From NCBI GenBank assembly GCA_030620115.1, contig JAUXFG010000018.1, positions 1 through 37,994 on the forward strand: 37,994 nt of DNA, read 5' to 3'. Below the pieces are notes generated by a model. The model had not been told where the DNA came from. It made no database searches and was given only the letters and a program-made list of their open reading frames with translations. This document shows, in pieces, positions 1,366-36,467 of this stretch. Numbering within the stretch: the first letter of the stretch is position 1; every line of letters starts with the position of its first letter. A program made the position numbers and the translations under genes. This stretch comes from Candidatus Fermentibacterota bacterium (GTDB lineage Bacteria > JAFGKV01).

Positions 1366-3249
1366 ATGAGTGAACACCGAATTTTGGTGGTCGATGACGA
1401 TCCCTTGATGGTGAACCTGCTACAAGCCACGCTAGAGAACCGGGGATTTGATGTGTTGGTGGCCACGGATGGGCAAGAAGGGCTCGATACGATACAGGAT
1501 GAACATCCCGATCTGGTGGTTAGTGACATAATGATGCCCAAGGTTGATGGCTTCGAGCTTGTCCAAAGACTCCGGGCTGATCCCATGGTGGGGAATACTC
1601 CGGTGGTGATTCTGAGTGCAAAGGGTGAGGAAGAAGATCTGGTGAAGGGCCTCGAGCTTGGTGCAGATGACTATGTCACCAAGCCCTTCAGACCGAATGA
1701 GTTCGTCGCTAGACTGCAAACCATTCTGAGGAGGAGAGGGGCCCTCGCCCAAGGTATTAGACCATCGGCAGAAGCGCCTTTCTCGGAAGAAGGGCTCCAG
1801 CATCTTTCGCAGTATATCTTCGAAAACTTCGTGACAGGCATCGGCAATCGCTCGGCCTATGAAGCGGCTTTGGCATGCGCGGAGAATCCCGGGACAAGAT
1901 TCAATCCGCTCTTCCTCTACGGAGGACCGGGGTTAGGAAAGACCCACCTCATGTGCTCCTTGGCAACCACGGCTTATGAGAAAAACAAGAGCACAAAGGT
2001 ACAATATCTGAGCTCTGAGACATTCAGCCAGCAAGTTCTGGAGGCCTACCGGGCCAGATCCACCGCAGATCTGCGACAACGATATCTGAGTCTCGACATC
2101 CTCATCATCGACGATATACAATTCCTTGCGATCTCGCCAAGTCTTCAGCATGTAGCCGCCGATATCCTATCAGACATGTATGATCGAGGGAAACAGATCG
2201 TGATTTCCAGTGACAGAAGACCCGAAGAGATCACGACTCTGAGCGGCGGGATTGCCACAGGACTGGGAATCGGCCTGGTAGTGGAAGTGGATCATCCGGA
2301 CGCATCATTGAGGAGCCGAATCCTGAGATTCAAGGCCGAGCGGAACGCGTGGCCATTGGAGCGGGATCTCCTCGATCATCTCGCCAGTCACCTCGAATCC
2401 GATGTCAGAACTCTTGAAGGAGTGGCGAAACGACTTGTCGCCATGAATGCGTTGAGCGGCATACCATTGGACACTCAGACCGTGGATGATCTGATAAAGG
2501 AGGTTACTCTATCCGAAGAAGACGAGATTCTGCCCCCGGAGCAGACACCATCCCGATTCGAAGAGTTTTTGCCCGGCTCGCCTGGTGTGGACACCGGCGT
2601 CACGGAAGAGGAGAAGCAAGTCGATGACCGGCTGCCGGAATATGAGGATCCGTTCGCCGAGGAATTCCCTCGCTCCGCCTTCATGATCAGAACAACAGGT
2701 CTCCCTGAGGATGTCGCATTCAGGGTGCCGCATCCTGGCATCAGGTCAGTCGTCATAGTCGGCAACTCGCGCGCATTAGTGGTCGATACCATAGAGGCTC
2801 TTGCTGCTCGAACCGGGGATGGCCCCGGCATCCCGGAGGGTGATCGTTGGGCATATATGCTTCATGTCGACAAAAAGAAGCCGAAATGGCTACTGGTCGG
2901 ACTGAATCAATGGGATGACACCAAGATCTTTGCACCGGCGTTCGGAAACAACGGGACGCCCATGATCCTGGTTGTGCTTGACAGCAAGAGTCCCAAGATT
3001 CTCGACGCGCGTCGGCTCATCTCTTCATTGCCCAGCGATTGGCCGGCGGTGGTGGTAGTACTTGTCAGCGCCGATGTCGAGACACTGGAGGGCACACGAA
3101 AGACGCTGACCGAGAGTTTGCGTCGTCTATTCCGTGTTCCGACAGGCGTGCCCATGATGGTCAGCGGTACTGTGGATACCTACGAGAGCCGGCATTGGCT
3201 GGTGGTAGCGATGGCAGAAAGAGACTTGGGCTCGGGGGAGGACGACTGA
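1366..3249 (+). CDS. Response regulator fused to a DnaA-like AAA+ ATPase and a GTPase-like C-terminal domain
   Basis: Encodes a 627-residue protein from ATG 1366, 9 bases after GAGGAG (1351-1356). Residues 1-122 are a CheY-like receiver: acidic pocket D10-D12, phospho-acceptor D54, S84 and K106. Residues about 145-385 resemble DnaA domain III: a FENFVTG-like entry, Walker A GGPGLGKT (186-193), Walker B LIIDD (246-250) and a sensor SSDRRP. The DnaA DNA-binding domain IV is absent. An acidic linker (about 385-430) leads to about 195 residues with an alternating strand/helix pattern resembling Ras-like GTPases, but with VGNSRALV where a P-loop would be and no NKxD. It is probably a phosphorylation-controlled ATPase, perhaps acting like Hda or DnaA on DNA or polar complexes; the role is inferred. 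No sensor kinase is adjacent. It is not the cell's replication initiator, since it cannot bind DnaA boxes in the usual way. Confidence 0.85.
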   Translation: MSEHRILVVDDDPLMVNLLQATLENRGFDVLVATDGQEGLDTIQDEHPDLVVSDIMMPKVDGFELVQRLRADPMVGNTPVVILSAKGEEEDLVKGLELGADDYVTKPFRPNEFVARLQTILRRRGALAQGIRPSAEAPFSEEGLQHLSQYIFENFVTGIGNRSAYEAALACAENPGTRFNPLFLYGGPGLGKTHLMCSLATTAYEKNKSTKVQYLSSETFSQQVLEAYRARSTADLRQRYLSLDILIIDDIQFLAISPSLQHVAADILSDMYDRGKQIVISSDRRPEEITTLSGGIATGLGIGLVVEVDHPDASLRSRILRFKAERNAWPLERDLLDHLASHLESDVRTLEGVAKRLVAMNALSGIPLDTQTVDDLIKEVTLSEEDEILPPEQTPSRFEEFLPGSPGVDTGVTEEEKQVDDRLPEYEDPFAEEFPRSAFMIRTTGLPEDVAFRVPHPGIRSVVIVGNSRALVVDTIEALAARTGDGPGIPEGDRWAYMLHVDKKKPKWLLVGLNQWDDTKIFAPAFGNNGTPMILVVLDSKSPKILDARRLISSLPSDWPAVVVVLVSADVETLEGTRKTLTESLRRLFRVPTGVPMMVSGTVDTYESRHWLVVAMAERDLGSGEDD

Positions 3250-29634: not shown

Positions 29635-31425
29635 TCATATTGGTAAGTGGTAACTCTTCATATCGCGCCACAGATTCCGCCGTCGTTTATGTTGCTGACA
29701 CCATTGCGCCAGCATACCGTCATATGCATCGCGGCTCAGCTCATAGAGCGCTTTCATCCATTGAGCATGACTGGCATAATTTGAGCCGTAGGCGTGCGCC
29801 GGATCCGGAACAATATGGCGTAGGTGGTCTGTCCAAATATCCATGACAGTCGAAAGGCAGGAACCCGCATTCATTTTCTGTAGCCCGCTGCAACGTGTCT
29901 TGTTCAGCAAAGATGCGTGGGAATCGTCGGGAAGGACGATCTTGAAAAAGGTAGGATACTGCTTCTTGAGCCCGCCACTCTCAGGCAGATCCTTTGTTAA
30001 TCGTGCAAGCGATCTCCATTGTTCTGCAAAAGCATTGCCGTCTCTTCTCAGATCTGCCAACCAAGTGTTGAGCTTCATCATGAACCATGCCCCTTTCCCC
30101 GTTATGTCCACTTCGGCTTCAATCAACCAGTGTATCCATGTGTCAGAGGAAAGAGGGGCATCCATAACATGGCCAATACTTCGCCGAGCCATTTCGTTCT
30201 GCCATTGAACAAACAGCGGATCGATTGCTTCTCTTGCCTCACGATTTCGCTGCTTCTTGTAATGACTAATAATGGCATCCCAGTCTTCGGGGGCACGAAA
30301 CACCATGCTTTGCAATTCTGATGCGGCACTTCGTTTTATATTGCCGAGCTTCTGCGCTACACTCGCCCATGATTGCAGCAATCCTGAGATATCTTCCTCA
30401 TTATCTCCATAAGAGTATCTTCGTTCATCAAGCAGGAGGGAAGTTTCAGGATACCATGTTGTCTTATCTTTCCTGCTCAAGCAACTGGAAAAGGTCTCCT
30501 CAAGCAATGATTCAGCGACTTGATAATCACCCCGGCCAAGAGCATCATCAATCAGGGGCTGGCCGTACCGCCAGTTCTCGGCAAGGTGCTTCCGGCATGT
30601 TTCAAGGTGTTCGGCAGAGTCGAATCGTTTCTGATAGAGATGATTCATCCTGTGCCATCTTGAATAGACATTCTCCAGATGATTTCTGTTGTCATCATTC
30701 TGGAAGCACTCATAGATTTCACAGCAGACTTCCCCGGGGAGTTCTGTAAAGAAATCAACACACTCATTATCATCCAGATCCACCATATCGCAGTGGTCCT
30801 GAATTCCATAAACCTTGTCCAGAAAAGCCTTGCCGGGGCGCGCATCCTTGAGCGAAGAAAGCCACAGCCATCTCAATACGCAGCGGGTGACATTTGCCTC
30901 CAGTGTGCACCCCTCACCATCCTCAGCACCCATCCATTCGGGGTATGAAGAGATGTTTGAACCGATCTCCTCCAGCGCGTTGGAAAACAGATCAGGATCA
31001 TCGACCAGATCATAGACGTCATCAATAAGACCGAGCATGTTCCCCGCTATCGGATCAAGGTCATCCGCAAGGACAGATCCGTCAAAATAAGGCGGTTCCC
31101 AGTGTGCGTCCTGAACGGCATATTTGCCCTCTTCATCACCTACTTCGGAAACCAGGCCGTCCCAGTGACTCCACAATGAATTCCAGTGCTCGATTGTCCG
31201 TTCATCGGAAGCAACCCGGACAACCGGAGATGTGCGGGTTTTTTCATGGTCCATTTTCAGGATTTTGCCTACGGTTTCGCCCATATCCGGGTCGGCCTTT
31301 TTGAACGCCTCCGTATACCGATTCGCATCTCCGGTGGAAAACACAACATCCAGAAGGCAGGTAATCTGATCTATCGTCAAAGATTCCATCAGGAATTTGC
31401 CGATATGGCGTTTTGCTTTTTTCAT
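29635..31425 (-). CDS. Protein of unknown function, 596 residues
   Basis: I do not recognise this protein. It runs without interruption from ATG 31425, with GGAG about 13 bases before; ATG at residue 13 is an alternative. It has no signal peptide or membrane segment, is acidic in the first 250 residues, rich in Trp, His and Asp, and looks almost wholly helical, with repeated W-x(5-7)-W and LxxW patterns that could be TPR-like or HEAT-like. Cysteines are scattered and do not form a zinc-finger or SWIM motif. By eye the gene is more AT-rich than its neighbours, and it sits between repeat-filled gaps, which suggests acquisition by transfer. It is convergent with EF-G and divergent from the helicase gene 1.5 kb away. 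Function unknown. Confidence 0.78.
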   Translation of the reverse strand: MKKAKRHIGKFLMESLTIDQITCLLDVVFSTGDANRYTEAFKKADPDMGETVGKILKMDHEKTRTSPVVRVASDERTIEHWNSLWSHWDGLVSEVGDEEGKYAVQDAHWEPPYFDGSVLADDLDPIAGNMLGLIDDVYDLVDDPDLFSNALEEIGSNISSYPEWMGAEDGEGCTLEANVTRCVLRWLWLSSLKDARPGKAFLDKVYGIQDHCDMVDLDDNECVDFFTELPGEVCCEIYECFQNDDNRNHLENVYSRWHRMNHLYQKRFDSAEHLETCRKHLAENWRYGQPLIDDALGRGDYQVAESLLEETFSSCLSRKDKTTWYPETSLLLDERRYSYGDNEEDISGLLQSWASVAQKLGNIKRSAASELQSMVFRAPEDWDAIISHYKKQRNREAREAIDPLFVQWQNEMARRSIGHVMDAPLSSDTWIHWLIEAEVDITGKGAWFMMKLNTWLADLRRDGNAFAEQWRSLARLTKDLPESGGLKKQYPTFFKIVLPDDSHASLLNKTRCSGLQKMNAGSCLSTVMDIWTDHLRHIVPDPAHAYGSNYASHAQWMKALYELSRDAYDGMLAQWCQQHKRRRNLWRDMKSYHLPI

Positions 31426-32902: not shown

Positions 32903-35290
32903 ATGAGATTCTTGAGATTCAAGAAAAGCATTTCTGAACAAAGCGCCGGAACGAAAAAGGGCGCCGAAACCAAGATGCTCCCGCAAGAAGAAGATGAGGG
33001 GCAAGATAATGATACTGGCTATGGAGTTCTTCCTTTGACCACAAAGGAACAGTGGTACCGGGAGATTTATCTTCGACTTGTTGACAAGAAGCGCAAACCC
33101 ATTGAGACAGCGGCGCAGGCGGTGAATCTGTATCCGACCGACGCCCACATGTTAATGCTCGCGGGTTTTGCGGCCATTGTTGAGGAGAAACCGCAACTCT
33201 GCCTGCGCTACATCAAACGGTATGACAAATGGTACTGGCCGAACGAAATGACTTTGACCTGCCAAGCTATTGCTCTTGCCCAGGCCGGGCGATGGCCCAT
33301 GGCGCAGAACCTCCTCGGGAAACACGATCTCCTCCATGTTCCGCCGTCGTCTCGATATCCCCTGGGGCTCGACGGCGCCTGGGCCTGGTCTTGGCTGAAA
33401 CGAATCCGTCAGTGGGCGCCGAAAGAGCCCGACAAGAGGAAGCCAAGGAGTAAGACCCGAGCCAAGTCTACCCCGCGAACACAGAAACAAGGCGCAAGGC
33501 CAAAAGAGCCGAGTCTCCAGGAAAGACGGAAGGTCGCTTTTTCGAACCTCAAGCCCTTGCCCCGTATCGAGCCCCGCGCTACCATCACTCTCGATATGCC
33601 GAGCTTCGATCAGTATGCCGCTCTTGATCGGCAAATAGCGGGCTCTGTGGGAGATTTTCTTCTGCGGCACGATTTTGCCCGGTTGTCGCTGCTCAAGGGC
33701 TTCGATGAGCTGGTCTGTATCCCTCACATTGAAGGCGTCGAACACTATCTGTATCAGATTGAGACCGTGCGGAAGGTCCTCAAGCAGTTTCGTGGCAGGG
33801 TCTTATTGGCAGACGAAGTGGGGCTGGGAAAGACCATTGAGGCGGGCATGATTCTCAAAGAGTATCTTCTGCGGGGGATGGCGGAACGGATTCTGATTCT
33901 GACCCCTCCGTCACTGGTTGGGCAGTGGCAAGAAGAAATGACGACAAAGTTCCATCTCAACTTCATCACCACTCATGATCCCCTGTTTCGCAAAGATCCC
34001 GCGACCTTCTGGTCGGACAAGAAAATCATCGCCTCCATCGCTACTGCCCGTATGGGCCGACATATGAAACTGGTGACGCGAGAGCCGTTTGACCTGGTGA
34101 TCGTGGACGAGGCGCATCACCTGAAGAATCGGACATCGAAGAACTGGAAGCTGGTTGACGCATTGAAGAAACGATTCCTGCTGATGCTCTCAGCCACGCC
34201 GGTTCAGAATAACCTGGTAGAGTTGTATAATCTGTTGACGCTCCTCAAACCGGGGCTTTTCAAAACCGAGAGGGAATTCCGGGCTTCCTACATGAAGCCG
34301 CGGCAGCCTCGAACTCCCTTGAATAGGGAACACCTTCAGGATCTGATGCGTGATGTGATGATCCGCAACACCCGAGCATTGGTGGATGTGAAGCTTCCCC
34401 CGCGCCAAGCCTTGACCCTGCGCATCGACCCCTCCCCAGAGGAAGCCCGCTGTTATCGGGAACTCAGCCGGCTCATACATGAAGTGCACTCGGAAGGTGT
34501 AAGCCGGCATCGGTTGGCTTTGCATCGTCTGCTTGAAGCGGGAGGCTCATCGCCGTCTGCGGTTGCCGTTGCGCTCGAGAGGTTCCTCCAAGGTGATGGT
34601 CGGGCTTCGTGGCGGGATCTACGGGATCGCTATCTGGCTGTAGGAAATGGCGCGAAGGTAGAGGCGTTGCTCGAACTCCTTGCTCGTAATCCAGGTGAAA
34701 AGAAGATTGTCTTCGTGCGATTCAGAGAGACGCTTCGTCTCCTGGATCAAACATTCTCCGAGAATGGACTGTCTTTTGCGCGGTTTGACGGGCAGATGAG
34801 TGGACAGAAGAAAGATGAAGCCATTGAACGATTCCGCAATGAGGCGGCCATCCTGCTCTGCACCGAATCAGGCGGAGAGGGCCGGAATATGCAATTCTGT
34901 CATACCCTGATCAATTTCGACCTACCCTGGAATCCACAGGTGATTGAGCAACGCATCGGACGTATCCACCGAATCGGTCAACAGCACGAGGTCTTTGTCT
35001 TCAACCTGGCAACAAAAGAGACGATCGAAGAAAAAATCCTGACCATCTTGGATGAAAAGATCAATATGTTTGAACTAGTAGTAGGAGAGATCCAGTGTAT
35101 CCTCGGTAAGATGGATGATGACCGGGATTTCGCAGAGATGGTTTTTGAAGCCTGGGTCCAGGAAACGGGAAGCCGCAATGATGAGGCATTTGGCGCGCTC
35201 AGCGACAAGCTGGACAAGGCTCGCCGGCAGTATGACGAGACCAAGGCCTATGATGATGAGCTATTCGGCGACGAATTCGAAGCGGTATAG
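32903..35290 (+). CDS. SNF2/RapA-like helicase-type ATPase with helical-repeat N-domain
   Basis: Encodes 795 residues from ATG 32903, with a close GAGGGG. Residues about 45-175 look like paired helices of the TPR kind, followed by a very basic linker (about 178-205). The superfamily 2 motor has motif I DEVGLGKT (304-311), DEAH (402-405), LSATP (429-433), and motif VI QRIGRIHRIGQ (683-693), with a GGEGRN segment just before. The tail (about 710-795) is acidic and ends DDELFGDEFEAV. Such ATPases translocate on duplex DNA and remodel bound proteins; RapA acts on RNA polymerase, and others belong to defence loci such as DISARM. No nuclease or methylase motif is fused. A coiled-coil/zinc protein starts 17 bases after the stop, so the two form a likely operon. 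The specific role is unknown. Confidence 0.92.
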   Translation: MRFLRFKKSISEQSAGTKKGAETKMLPQEEDEGQDNDTGYGVLPLTTKEQWYREIYLRLVDKKRKPIETAAQAVNLYPTDAHMLMLAGFAAIVEEKPQLCLRYIKRYDKWYWPNEMTLTCQAIALAQAGRWPMAQNLLGKHDLLHVPPSSRYPLGLDGAWAWSWLKRIRQWAPKEPDKRKPRSKTRAKSTPRTQKQGARPKEPSLQERRKVAFSNLKPLPRIEPRATITLDMPSFDQYAALDRQIAGSVGDFLLRHDFARLSLLKGFDELVCIPHIEGVEHYLYQIETVRKVLKQFRGRVLLADEVGLGKTIEAGMILKEYLLRGMAERILILTPPSLVGQWQEEMTTKFHLNFITTHDPLFRKDPATFWSDKKIIASIATARMGRHMKLVTREPFDLVIVDEAHHLKNRTSKNWKLVDALKKRFLLMLSATPVQNNLVELYNLLTLLKPGLFKTEREFRASYMKPRQPRTPLNREHLQDLMRDVMIRNTRALVDVKLPPRQALTLRIDPSPEEARCYRELSRLIHEVHSEGVSRHRLALHRLLEAGGSSPSAVAVALERFLQGDGRASWRDLRDRYLAVGNGAKVEALLELLARNPGEKKIVFVRFRETLRLLDQTFSENGLSFARFDGQMSGQKKDEAIERFRNEAAILLCTESGGEGRNMQFCHTLINFDLPWNPQVIEQRIGRIHRIGQQHEVFVFNLATKETIEEKILTILDEKINMFELVVGEIQCILGKMDDDRDFAEMVFEAWVQETGSRNDEAFGALSDKLDKARRQYDETKAYDDELFGDEFEAV

Positions 35291-35306: not shown

Positions 35307-36467
35307 ATGAGTGAAATTCGCAACCTGATATCCCGTCTTTTGGTATCCGAAGGAGCATTGATCGAGCCCATTGATCCCGATGGATTGGAGGTATTGACGA
35401 CCCCTTCCTTGCAAGAGATGCTTGAAGTTGACGAATTCATCCGCCTGGGGTTCGGTGCGGAGCTTCCCAAGGACGCCATAAGGGTGAGCTTGGAGTCGGA
35501 GTGGCTTGATAAGCTGGGCTTGCTCGTCAAGAACCGCGGTCATGTCCTGAACGTCGTGCTGGATGAAAAAAACACACGGTGGCCATCTTCCCCTGATCGT
35601 CTTGTCGACCGCAAGATGGTGCTTGAAAACGCGACGTACCGTTTTATCGACGCTGGCGAAGCTCGAACACACTATCTCCTGCTCGTTTTTCATGCCACCG
35701 CCATATCTGACGAGAAACGTGAGGATATGTTCTCTGTGTGCCTGAATGAGTCCAATTCCGCCTATGCGGATCATCTGATCCCGGGGCTCTTTGACTACTT
35801 GCAGCAAACACGGCCTGAAGAGACCCTTCCATCGTCTGCCGCGGAAGAGGCGGGAACGCCATGGTCTGCGTCACAGGCTCGTGAATGCTGCTCGCATTTG
35901 CTGCGCGCGAGGATTCGCGGGCGGTTGGCCCCGTTCCTTACCGGCATGGAACGCAGAATGTCGCGAGATTTGGAACGGCTCCTTTCCTATCACACCGACC
36001 TCCGCAATGAAGCAGCTCTGCAGTGGGAAAAAAAGAAGGAAAAGGATGCTGCATCTTTGAAGTGCGAGAAGATGAGGATTGAAGCCATCGAGCAGGAATA
36101 CCGGGCCAAGATCGAAGATCTGAAGCGTCGCTATGCAATGAGAGTGGATGTACGGCTCATACAGGCGGTGCGCGTGACATTGCCTGTGTACCGCCTGCAG
36201 TTGCGTATTCTACGCCGGAAAGGGCACAGAGCCTTTCATCTTGATTGGAATCCGCTCTCGAAACAACTAGATGATCTTCCATGCGAAAGCTGTGGGATGC
36301 CCGCGAAGACACACTACGTGTGCGATGAGCGACTCCACCTACTCTGCCCGGTCTGCATGACTGTGTGCCCAGGGTGCCAAAAAACATACTGTCGTGCATG
36401 CCACAGGCAAAAATGCCCGAAATGCGGTCGCAAGGATGTTCGTCTTGCTGGAAGTGAACCTGGGTAA
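35307..36467 (+). CDS. Unknown protein with coiled coil and C-terminal zinc-finger cluster
   Basis: I do not recognise this family as a whole. The 386-residue protein starts at ATG 35307, 17 bases after the helicase stop and without a clear ribosome site, so translation may be coupled. Residues 1-165 look like a mixed alpha/beta domain. Residues about 213-285 are highly charged and helical, probably a coiled coil. The last 60 residues hold eleven cysteines: C326/C329, C339, C347/C350, C354/C357, C362/C365 and C370/C373, enough for two or more zinc sites of ribbon or RING-like type. No membrane segment or catalytic motif is seen. It is likely a DNA-binding or scaffold partner of the helicase; this is inference from position and domains. 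Confidence 0.85.
   Translation: MSEIRNLISRLLVSEGALIEPIDPDGLEVLTTPSLQEMLEVDEFIRLGFGAELPKDAIRVSLESEWLDKLGLLVKNRGHVLNVVLDEKNTRWPSSPDRLVDRKMVLENATYRFIDAGEARTHYLLLVFHATAISDEKREDMFSVCLNESNSAYADHLIPGLFDYLQQTRPEETLPSSAAEEAGTPWSASQARECCSHLLRARIRGRLAPFLTGMERRMSRDLERLLSYHTDLRNEAALQWEKKKEKDAASLKCEKMRIEAIEQEYRAKIEDLKRRYAMRVDVRLIQAVRVTLPVYRLQLRILRRKGHRAFHLDWNPLSKQLDDLPCESCGMPAKTHYVCDERLHLLCPVCMTVCPGCQKTYCRACHRQKCPKCGRKDVRLAGSEPG

Follow-up and report, generated by a model that had tools for sequence, protein, structure and literature searches.

A receiver and DnaA-type ATPase protein with a predicted Ras-like C-terminal domain in Candidatus Fermentibacterota and its non-initiator relatives

Domain III of DnaA, an AAA+ ATPase, is commonly treated as a marker of replication initiation. 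AAA+ ATPases also follow receivers in NtrC-type response regulators, and the MshEN domain is the N-terminal domain of PilB and GspE. Myxococcus xanthus has a polarity module, MglA/RomR, whose switch pairs a Ras-like fold with a receiver protein (PMC3441718, PMC7519303). Here we describe a protein of a Candidatus Fermentibacterota bacterium that carries a receiver, a DnaA domain III and a further conserved domain in one chain. Each of its parts is of a familiar kind. What is new, to the extent that we could check, is their combination and its kinship, and we found no earlier report of receiver-DnaA or MshEN-DnaA proteins in the literature searched, which lay mostly outside subscription journals.

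The window, meaning the whole stretch of DNA analysed, is the 37,994-nt contig JAUXFG010000018.1. The open reading frame of interest starts at a TTG at 1336 on the forward strand, upstream of an ATG at 1366 that is preceded by the purine-rich, Shine-Dalgarno-like GGGAGAGGAG and that opens a frame of 627 codons (Table 1). The three-domain architecture is firm: a receiver, a DnaA domain III and a C-terminal domain that occupies the place of domain IV in DnaA. Pfam gives no match past Bac_DnaA in the window protein, the C-terminal domain included.

Table 1. Features of the gene and its product, in window coordinates
Feature	Position	Strand	Basis
Gene, receiver / DnaA-like ATPase / predicted pseudo-GTPase protein, 627 aa	1366..3249 (stop 3247-3249)	+	11 full-length homologues
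Receiver domain, PhoB/OmpR-like, residues 6-117	1381..1716	+	PF00072, E 4.9e-33
Codon of phospho-acceptor D54	1525-1527	+	
DnaA domain III-type AAA+ ATPase with lid, residues 149-388	1810..2529	+	PF00308, TIGR00362, PDB 8btg
Walker A GGPGLGKTH, residues 186-194, intact	1921..1947	+	
Walker B ILIIDD, residues 245-250, intact	2098..2115	+	
DnaA box VII region GGIATGLGIGL, residues 294-304	2245..2277	+	Alignment to other DnaA ATPase domains
Variable acidic linker, residues 389-427	2530..2646	+	Identity between orthologues
C-terminal conserved domain, residues 428-627, predicted Ras-like fold (core about 460-622)	2647..3246	+	AlphaFold2 and Foldseek

A homologue search of 60 genomes returned 11 further full-length homologues, all from the window's genome (G000) or two other genomes of the same phylum (G001, G002; below, C denotes a contig and L a locus). 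The family thus numbers 12, with four copies in each of three genomes, and this phylum sample spans one family and two genera. Because the same domain order recurs in 12 proteins of three genomes, with orthologues in G001 and G002 71-78% identical overall and the domains conserved, the architecture is far beyond chance. Between these orthologue pairs the linker is 12-60% identical, against 62-89% in the domains and 62-86% in the C-terminal domain itself; with three conserved domains around a mostly variable linker, the C-terminal domain is under constraint. In 383 other genomes, a profile of the C-terminal domain had no match and no receiver-DnaA fusion emerged among the five best candidates scored per genome, a depth at which a weak fusion could escape. 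The 15 best matches of a combined receiver and DnaA profile, at least 538 bits, are confined to the three same-phylum genomes, and every match listed elsewhere covers the ATPase alone, at 264 bits at most.

DnaA-type ATPase domains are abundant in this phylum, with 9-13 Bac_DnaA domains per genome, most of them under MshEN or receiver inputs. The window genome has 12 in all, including receiver-DnaA proteins of three types and several MshEN-DnaA proteins. Its canonical dnaA, complete with domain IV, lies on another contig (G000:C78, a 477-aa frame). Further receiver-DnaA proteins, of two types that lack the pseudo-GTPase, are encoded at L119 8085-9257 (orthologues at L128 and L135) and L120 8932-10452 (L129 and L159); the L120 type combines a degenerate receiver with a basic, proline-rich tail.

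The receiver (Response_reg in Pfam) is spanned by the PhoB model TIGR02154 over residues 4-125 (E 3e-38), and a PDB sequence search gives PhoP/PhoB-type regulators as its closest solved structures. All 12 family members hold the response-regulator residue set of an acidic pair, a phospho-acceptor Asp and a Thr/Ser plus Lys switch: D10, D11, D54 and K106 are invariant, position 12 is D or E and position 84 is S or T. Histidine kinase genes adjoin half of the copies (6/12). The kinases beside L118 and L124 begin with a segment that has no Pfam match, those beside L125 and L132 are of the cyclic-nucleotide-binding type, and those beside L127 and L134 are hybrid kinases with Hpt. Within 38 kb no kinase gene accompanies the window copy, whose contig offers only 1365 bases upstream of the gene; a lipoprotein-like gene precedes it, and rhomboid, signal peptidase and CDP-alcohol phosphatidyltransferase genes follow. 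Farther along the window are a ParE-type toxin gene near the contig end (37451-37750; PF05016, E 6e-11) and two long reading frames without a Pfam match, 29635-31425 (-) and 35307-36467 (+), which flank an SNF2 helicase gene (32903-35290).

Pfam places Bac_DnaA (PF00308) at residues 149-307 with E 9.1e-49, and the closest solved structure is Bacillus subtilis DnaA (PDB 8btg, E 4e-50). Residues 143-388 align to positions 101-346 of the 437-position full-length DnaA model TIGR00362, with the lid present; since the match ends there, domain IV is absent from the window protein. The [DN]HT[TS] signature occurs in none of the 12 C-terminal domains, and Bac_DnaA_C has no match on the window's contig. 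That domain IV has merely diverged or been replaced was considered and rejected, because DnaA models go no further than the lid and the C-terminal domain is predicted to fold differently. The earlier note had read the sequence as a receiver with its full phosphorylation set, joined to a domain III-like ATPase with intact Walker motifs and without domain IV; all three points hold, as do its coordinates.

Alignment with other DnaA ATPase domains indicates which parts of the machinery survive. Walker A, Walker B, sensor I and the sensor II Arg are kept in 12/12, and K192/T193, D249/D250, D283/R284 and R348 are invariant; because these elements are kept, the ATPase of the family likely binds ATP. 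Nine of the 12 have lost the arginine finger of box VII: an Arg at position 299 remains only in the C65, C20 and C199 copies, and the window protein has Gly299. Given this loss and what is established for DnaA, most copies are unlikely to be activated in trans in the way DnaA is. In every member a sequence resembling SPSLQxVAADIL takes the place of the initiator segment KERxQEEFFHTF. A receiver followed by an AAA+ domain is also the order of NtrC-type proteins, and the protein could be imagined as a transcription regulator of that kind in which a DnaA-type AAA+ has replaced the sigma-54 activator domain. However, the AAA+ is Bac_DnaA, there is no match to Sigma54_activat or HTH_8, and the protein offers neither an HTH nor domain IV nor a recognised DNA-binding fold in the C-terminal models, all of which leaves such a regulator very improbable.

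The family is set apart from the initiators in a maximum-likelihood tree built from 69 DnaA ATPase domains. The receiver-DnaA proteins form one group (support 99/94), which joins four MshEN-DnaA proteins of the same phylum in a group of 22 rows (100/98). Initiators with domain IV, including the window genome's own dnaA, form a separate group (99/96), and the window ATPase falls outside it. Judged by its sequence, then, the ATPase of the window protein is on a non-initiator branch common with same-phylum MshEN-DnaA proteins. The tree also rules out a recent duplicate of the genome's own dnaA. Because it was midpoint-rooted for drawing only, an order of events in which the MshEN fusion came first and the receiver later is something we infer.

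These placements bear on whether the protein acts in replication, a link that the earlier note had proposed and that gains no positive support here, since the ATPase groups with MshEN-DnaA proteins and not with initiators. As a replication regulator, the phosphorylation-gated ATPase would pack on the AAA+ domain of real DnaA, in the manner of Hda or a filament cap, and inhibit or license initiation. Such a partner is available, as a canonical DnaA is present in the genome; the AAA+ is closely related to DnaA domain III, as its match to the B. subtilis protein attests; and a capping subunit could well dispense with domain IV and, as in 9/12, with the arginine finger. Nonetheless, we consider this role improbable in view of the distance from initiators in the tree and the replaced KERxQEEFFHTF segment in 12/12. 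Four copies per genome beside different kinases would also be odd for an initiation regulator, and no replication gene was recognised beside the copies examined.

The C-terminal domain can be approached through structure prediction. An AlphaFold2 model of residues 427-627, built on the 12-sequence alignment, reached pLDDT 87 and pTM 0.85 and shows, after a short N-terminal strand and helix, the order b1-a1-b2-b3-a2-b4-a3-b5-a4-b6-a5. The core of paralogue G001:C126, modelled separately (pLDDT 81.5), agrees with the first model in the order b1-a1-b2-b3-b4-a3-b5-a4-b6-a5, and in both models two consecutive strands lie between long helices 1 and 2, like b2-b3 of Ras. Foldseek searches of the PDB put GTPases on top for both models (best E 1.8e-6 with probability 1.0 for the first, 4.4e-5 for the second), and the named matches in both top-50 lists are GTPases. 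TM-scores to GTPases are about 0.35-0.6 overall. For the first model, where the top 50 have TM about 0.35-0.56 and rmsd 6-9 A, all named small proteins are GTPases (EngB/YsxC, Rab, Rho, Ras, FeoB); the other rows are pre-ribosome chains, which we take to be Nog1-type and EngA-type GTPases.

The motifs of a working GTPase are missing from this predicted fold. The P-loop GxxxxGK[ST] is absent from 12/12 C-terminal domains, an NKxD-like string occurs in a single paralogue and is not conserved, and there is no conserved DxxG across the 12. The best PDB sequence match is weak, to the Der/EngA G domain at E 0.017. Profile comparison with 31 MglA sequences detected no similarity, which led us to reject descent of the domain from MglA; kinship at the level of the fold is possible. 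No Roc match above the cut-off marks a small GTPase partner in the phylum, and MglA was not found in G000, while G001 and G002 have one each. The pseudo-GTPase proposed in the earlier note thus stands as to its predicted Ras-type topology, seen in two models, and its lack of a P-loop, and gains nothing from MglA profiles; it is a call made on predicted fold. We regard a Ras-like fold without nucleotide motifs as the likely description and claim no homology to GTPases.

Another alpha/beta module, such as a degenerate AAA+ or Rossmann-like domain that came to resemble a G domain by convergence, is an unlikely substitute. It would account for the missing P-loop, NKxD and conserved DxxG, for the absence of MglA profile and Pfam matches and for a TM of only about 0.5, and an MshEN protein at L121 7245-8552, inspected by eye, suggests that the lineage does contain DnaA ATPase domains that have degenerated. 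It fits poorly with the Ras-like order of strands and helices in both models and with named Foldseek matches that are GTPases, to which the Der/EngA hit adds a weak but independent sequence match.

Clues to the process served by the family come from its MshEN-DnaA relatives. One of the four close relatives, a 412-aa frame on C14 with an orthologue in G001:C299, lies in an island that encodes PilD, PilB, two PilT-type ATPases, PilC, a PilS-type kinase and a PilR-type regulator; the close relatives on C283 and C7 have no pilus neighbours in view. This type IV pilus island contains consecutive MshEN/DnaA-type ATPase proteins (L121 on G000:C14, 4309-15923; L130 on G001:C299, 3940-13339). Beside the C14 relative stands a protein of 1993 aa in which MshEN is combined with long helical repeats and a pair of DnaA ATPase domains. 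The MshEN protein at L121 7245-8552 and L130 6876-8144, inspected by eye, has a C-terminal half resembling a DnaA ATPase that has lost its Walker A lysine, a pseudo-AAA+.

MshEN-DnaA proteins also occur in two other phyla (G026, G173 and G311; G118, G255 and G382), and G131 has one more such fusion. The G311 gene is a neighbour of pilB and part of an operon-like run with nearby pilT and pilC, a kinase and a regulator (L221 891-9974). In G118 and G255 it is one gene, encoding DUF4388, away from an MglA-like GTPase gene and a roadblock gene (L223 6364-10677; L224 7206-11502), and in G118 and G382 a single small gene separates another DnaA-like gene from a pilT-type gene. Since the ATPase domains of these other phyla fall outside the window protein's branch, the link between non-initiator DnaA ATPases and pilus or polarity genes looks recurrent in the few genomes where it was noticed.

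Other non-initiator DnaA designs turned up along the way. At L210 134-2821, a 620-aa DnaA-like protein is followed directly by two single-domain receiver genes, and its relatives at L211, L212 and L216 have a common uncharacterised C-terminal domain. Tandem DnaA domains, TPR-like repeats with DnaA in a 1752-aa frame, and DnaA with a C-terminal hydrophobic segment make up a further set (L213 1390-3495, L214 1480-6732, L204 406-2295).

None of the 12 family loci was found to lie directly beside pilus genes. Their neighbours are mixed, differ between paralogue groups and include a cyclic-nucleotide-binding kinase, a hybrid kinase with Hpt, and glycosidase and other metabolic genes. Both observations would suit a general cytosolic signalling scaffold, unlinked to pili or replication, whose paralogues serve different kinases while the ATPase and pseudo-GTPase recruit clients. 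However, its ATPase branch contains a pilus-island protein, and we consider a general scaffold rather unlikely. Polar or pilus assembly, the former raised in the earlier note, has circumstantial support; descent shared with a pilus-island protein does not establish what the family does today.

Our tentative reading, held at somewhat less than even confidence, is of a phosphorylation-gated, non-initiator AAA+ switch that is related to pilus-associated DnaA relatives and bears a pseudo-GTPase docking domain. A histidine kinase would phosphorylate D54, upon which the PhoB-like receiver would change its pairing and thereby alter the ATP/ADP state or the assembly of the DnaA-like ATPase, while the C-terminal domain would offer a docking surface to a partner. 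The target may be the control or positioning of envelope machinery, for example pili or a polarity module. We infer the kinase input and this target from gene neighbours and kinship; an envelope or pilus process appears the most likely one because the ATPase branch is common with MshEN-DnaA proteins, one of which sits in a type IV pilus island. A motility or polarity role for the family is possible, if short of probable. More doubtful is the broader proposal that replication-independent, DnaA-type switch ATPases serve pilus and polarity machinery at large, with the receiver/DnaA/pseudo-Ras protein as a single-chain version that was multiplied into parallel pathways in one phylum.

Should this reading hold, it would add a new output class to response regulators and offer a testable way for two-component signals to reach a DnaA-like AAA+ and set its state, with the chromosome left out of the pathway. 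Gene calls that name 'DnaA' from domain III alone are wrong for such proteins.

Among the known systems close to the window protein are the MshEN-DnaA fusions, non-initiators for which we found no name in the literature searched. They too have DnaA domain III without domain IV, and four of the same phylum fall in one clade with the receiver fusions, but their input is MshEN instead of a receiver, they have no pseudo-GTPase and several keep the arginine finger. With the DnaA initiator it has in common the domain III AAA+ with Walker A and B, sensor I and the sensor II Arg; it differs in the receiver that replaces domains I-II, the lack of domain IV, the mostly lost arginine finger and its separate branch. 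NtrC-type regulators begin in the same way, whereas here the AAA+ is DnaA-type, sigma-54 contact domain and HTH are lacking, and a Ras-like C-terminal domain follows. The predicted topology of that domain is like that of Ras-like/TRAFAC GTPases (EngB, Der, Nog1, Rab/Rho, MglA; Foldseek E 1.8e-6 to about 1e-4), yet it has none of their conserved nucleotide motifs and no MglA profile similarity. Finally, MglA/RomR likewise brings a receiver protein and a Ras-like fold into one switch, but the window protein has its receiver, its AAA+ and a Ras-like domain dead as a GTPase in a single chain, in a genome where MglA was not found; a likeness to that module reappears in another phylum, where MshEN-DnaA genes stand near mglA-like and roadblock genes.
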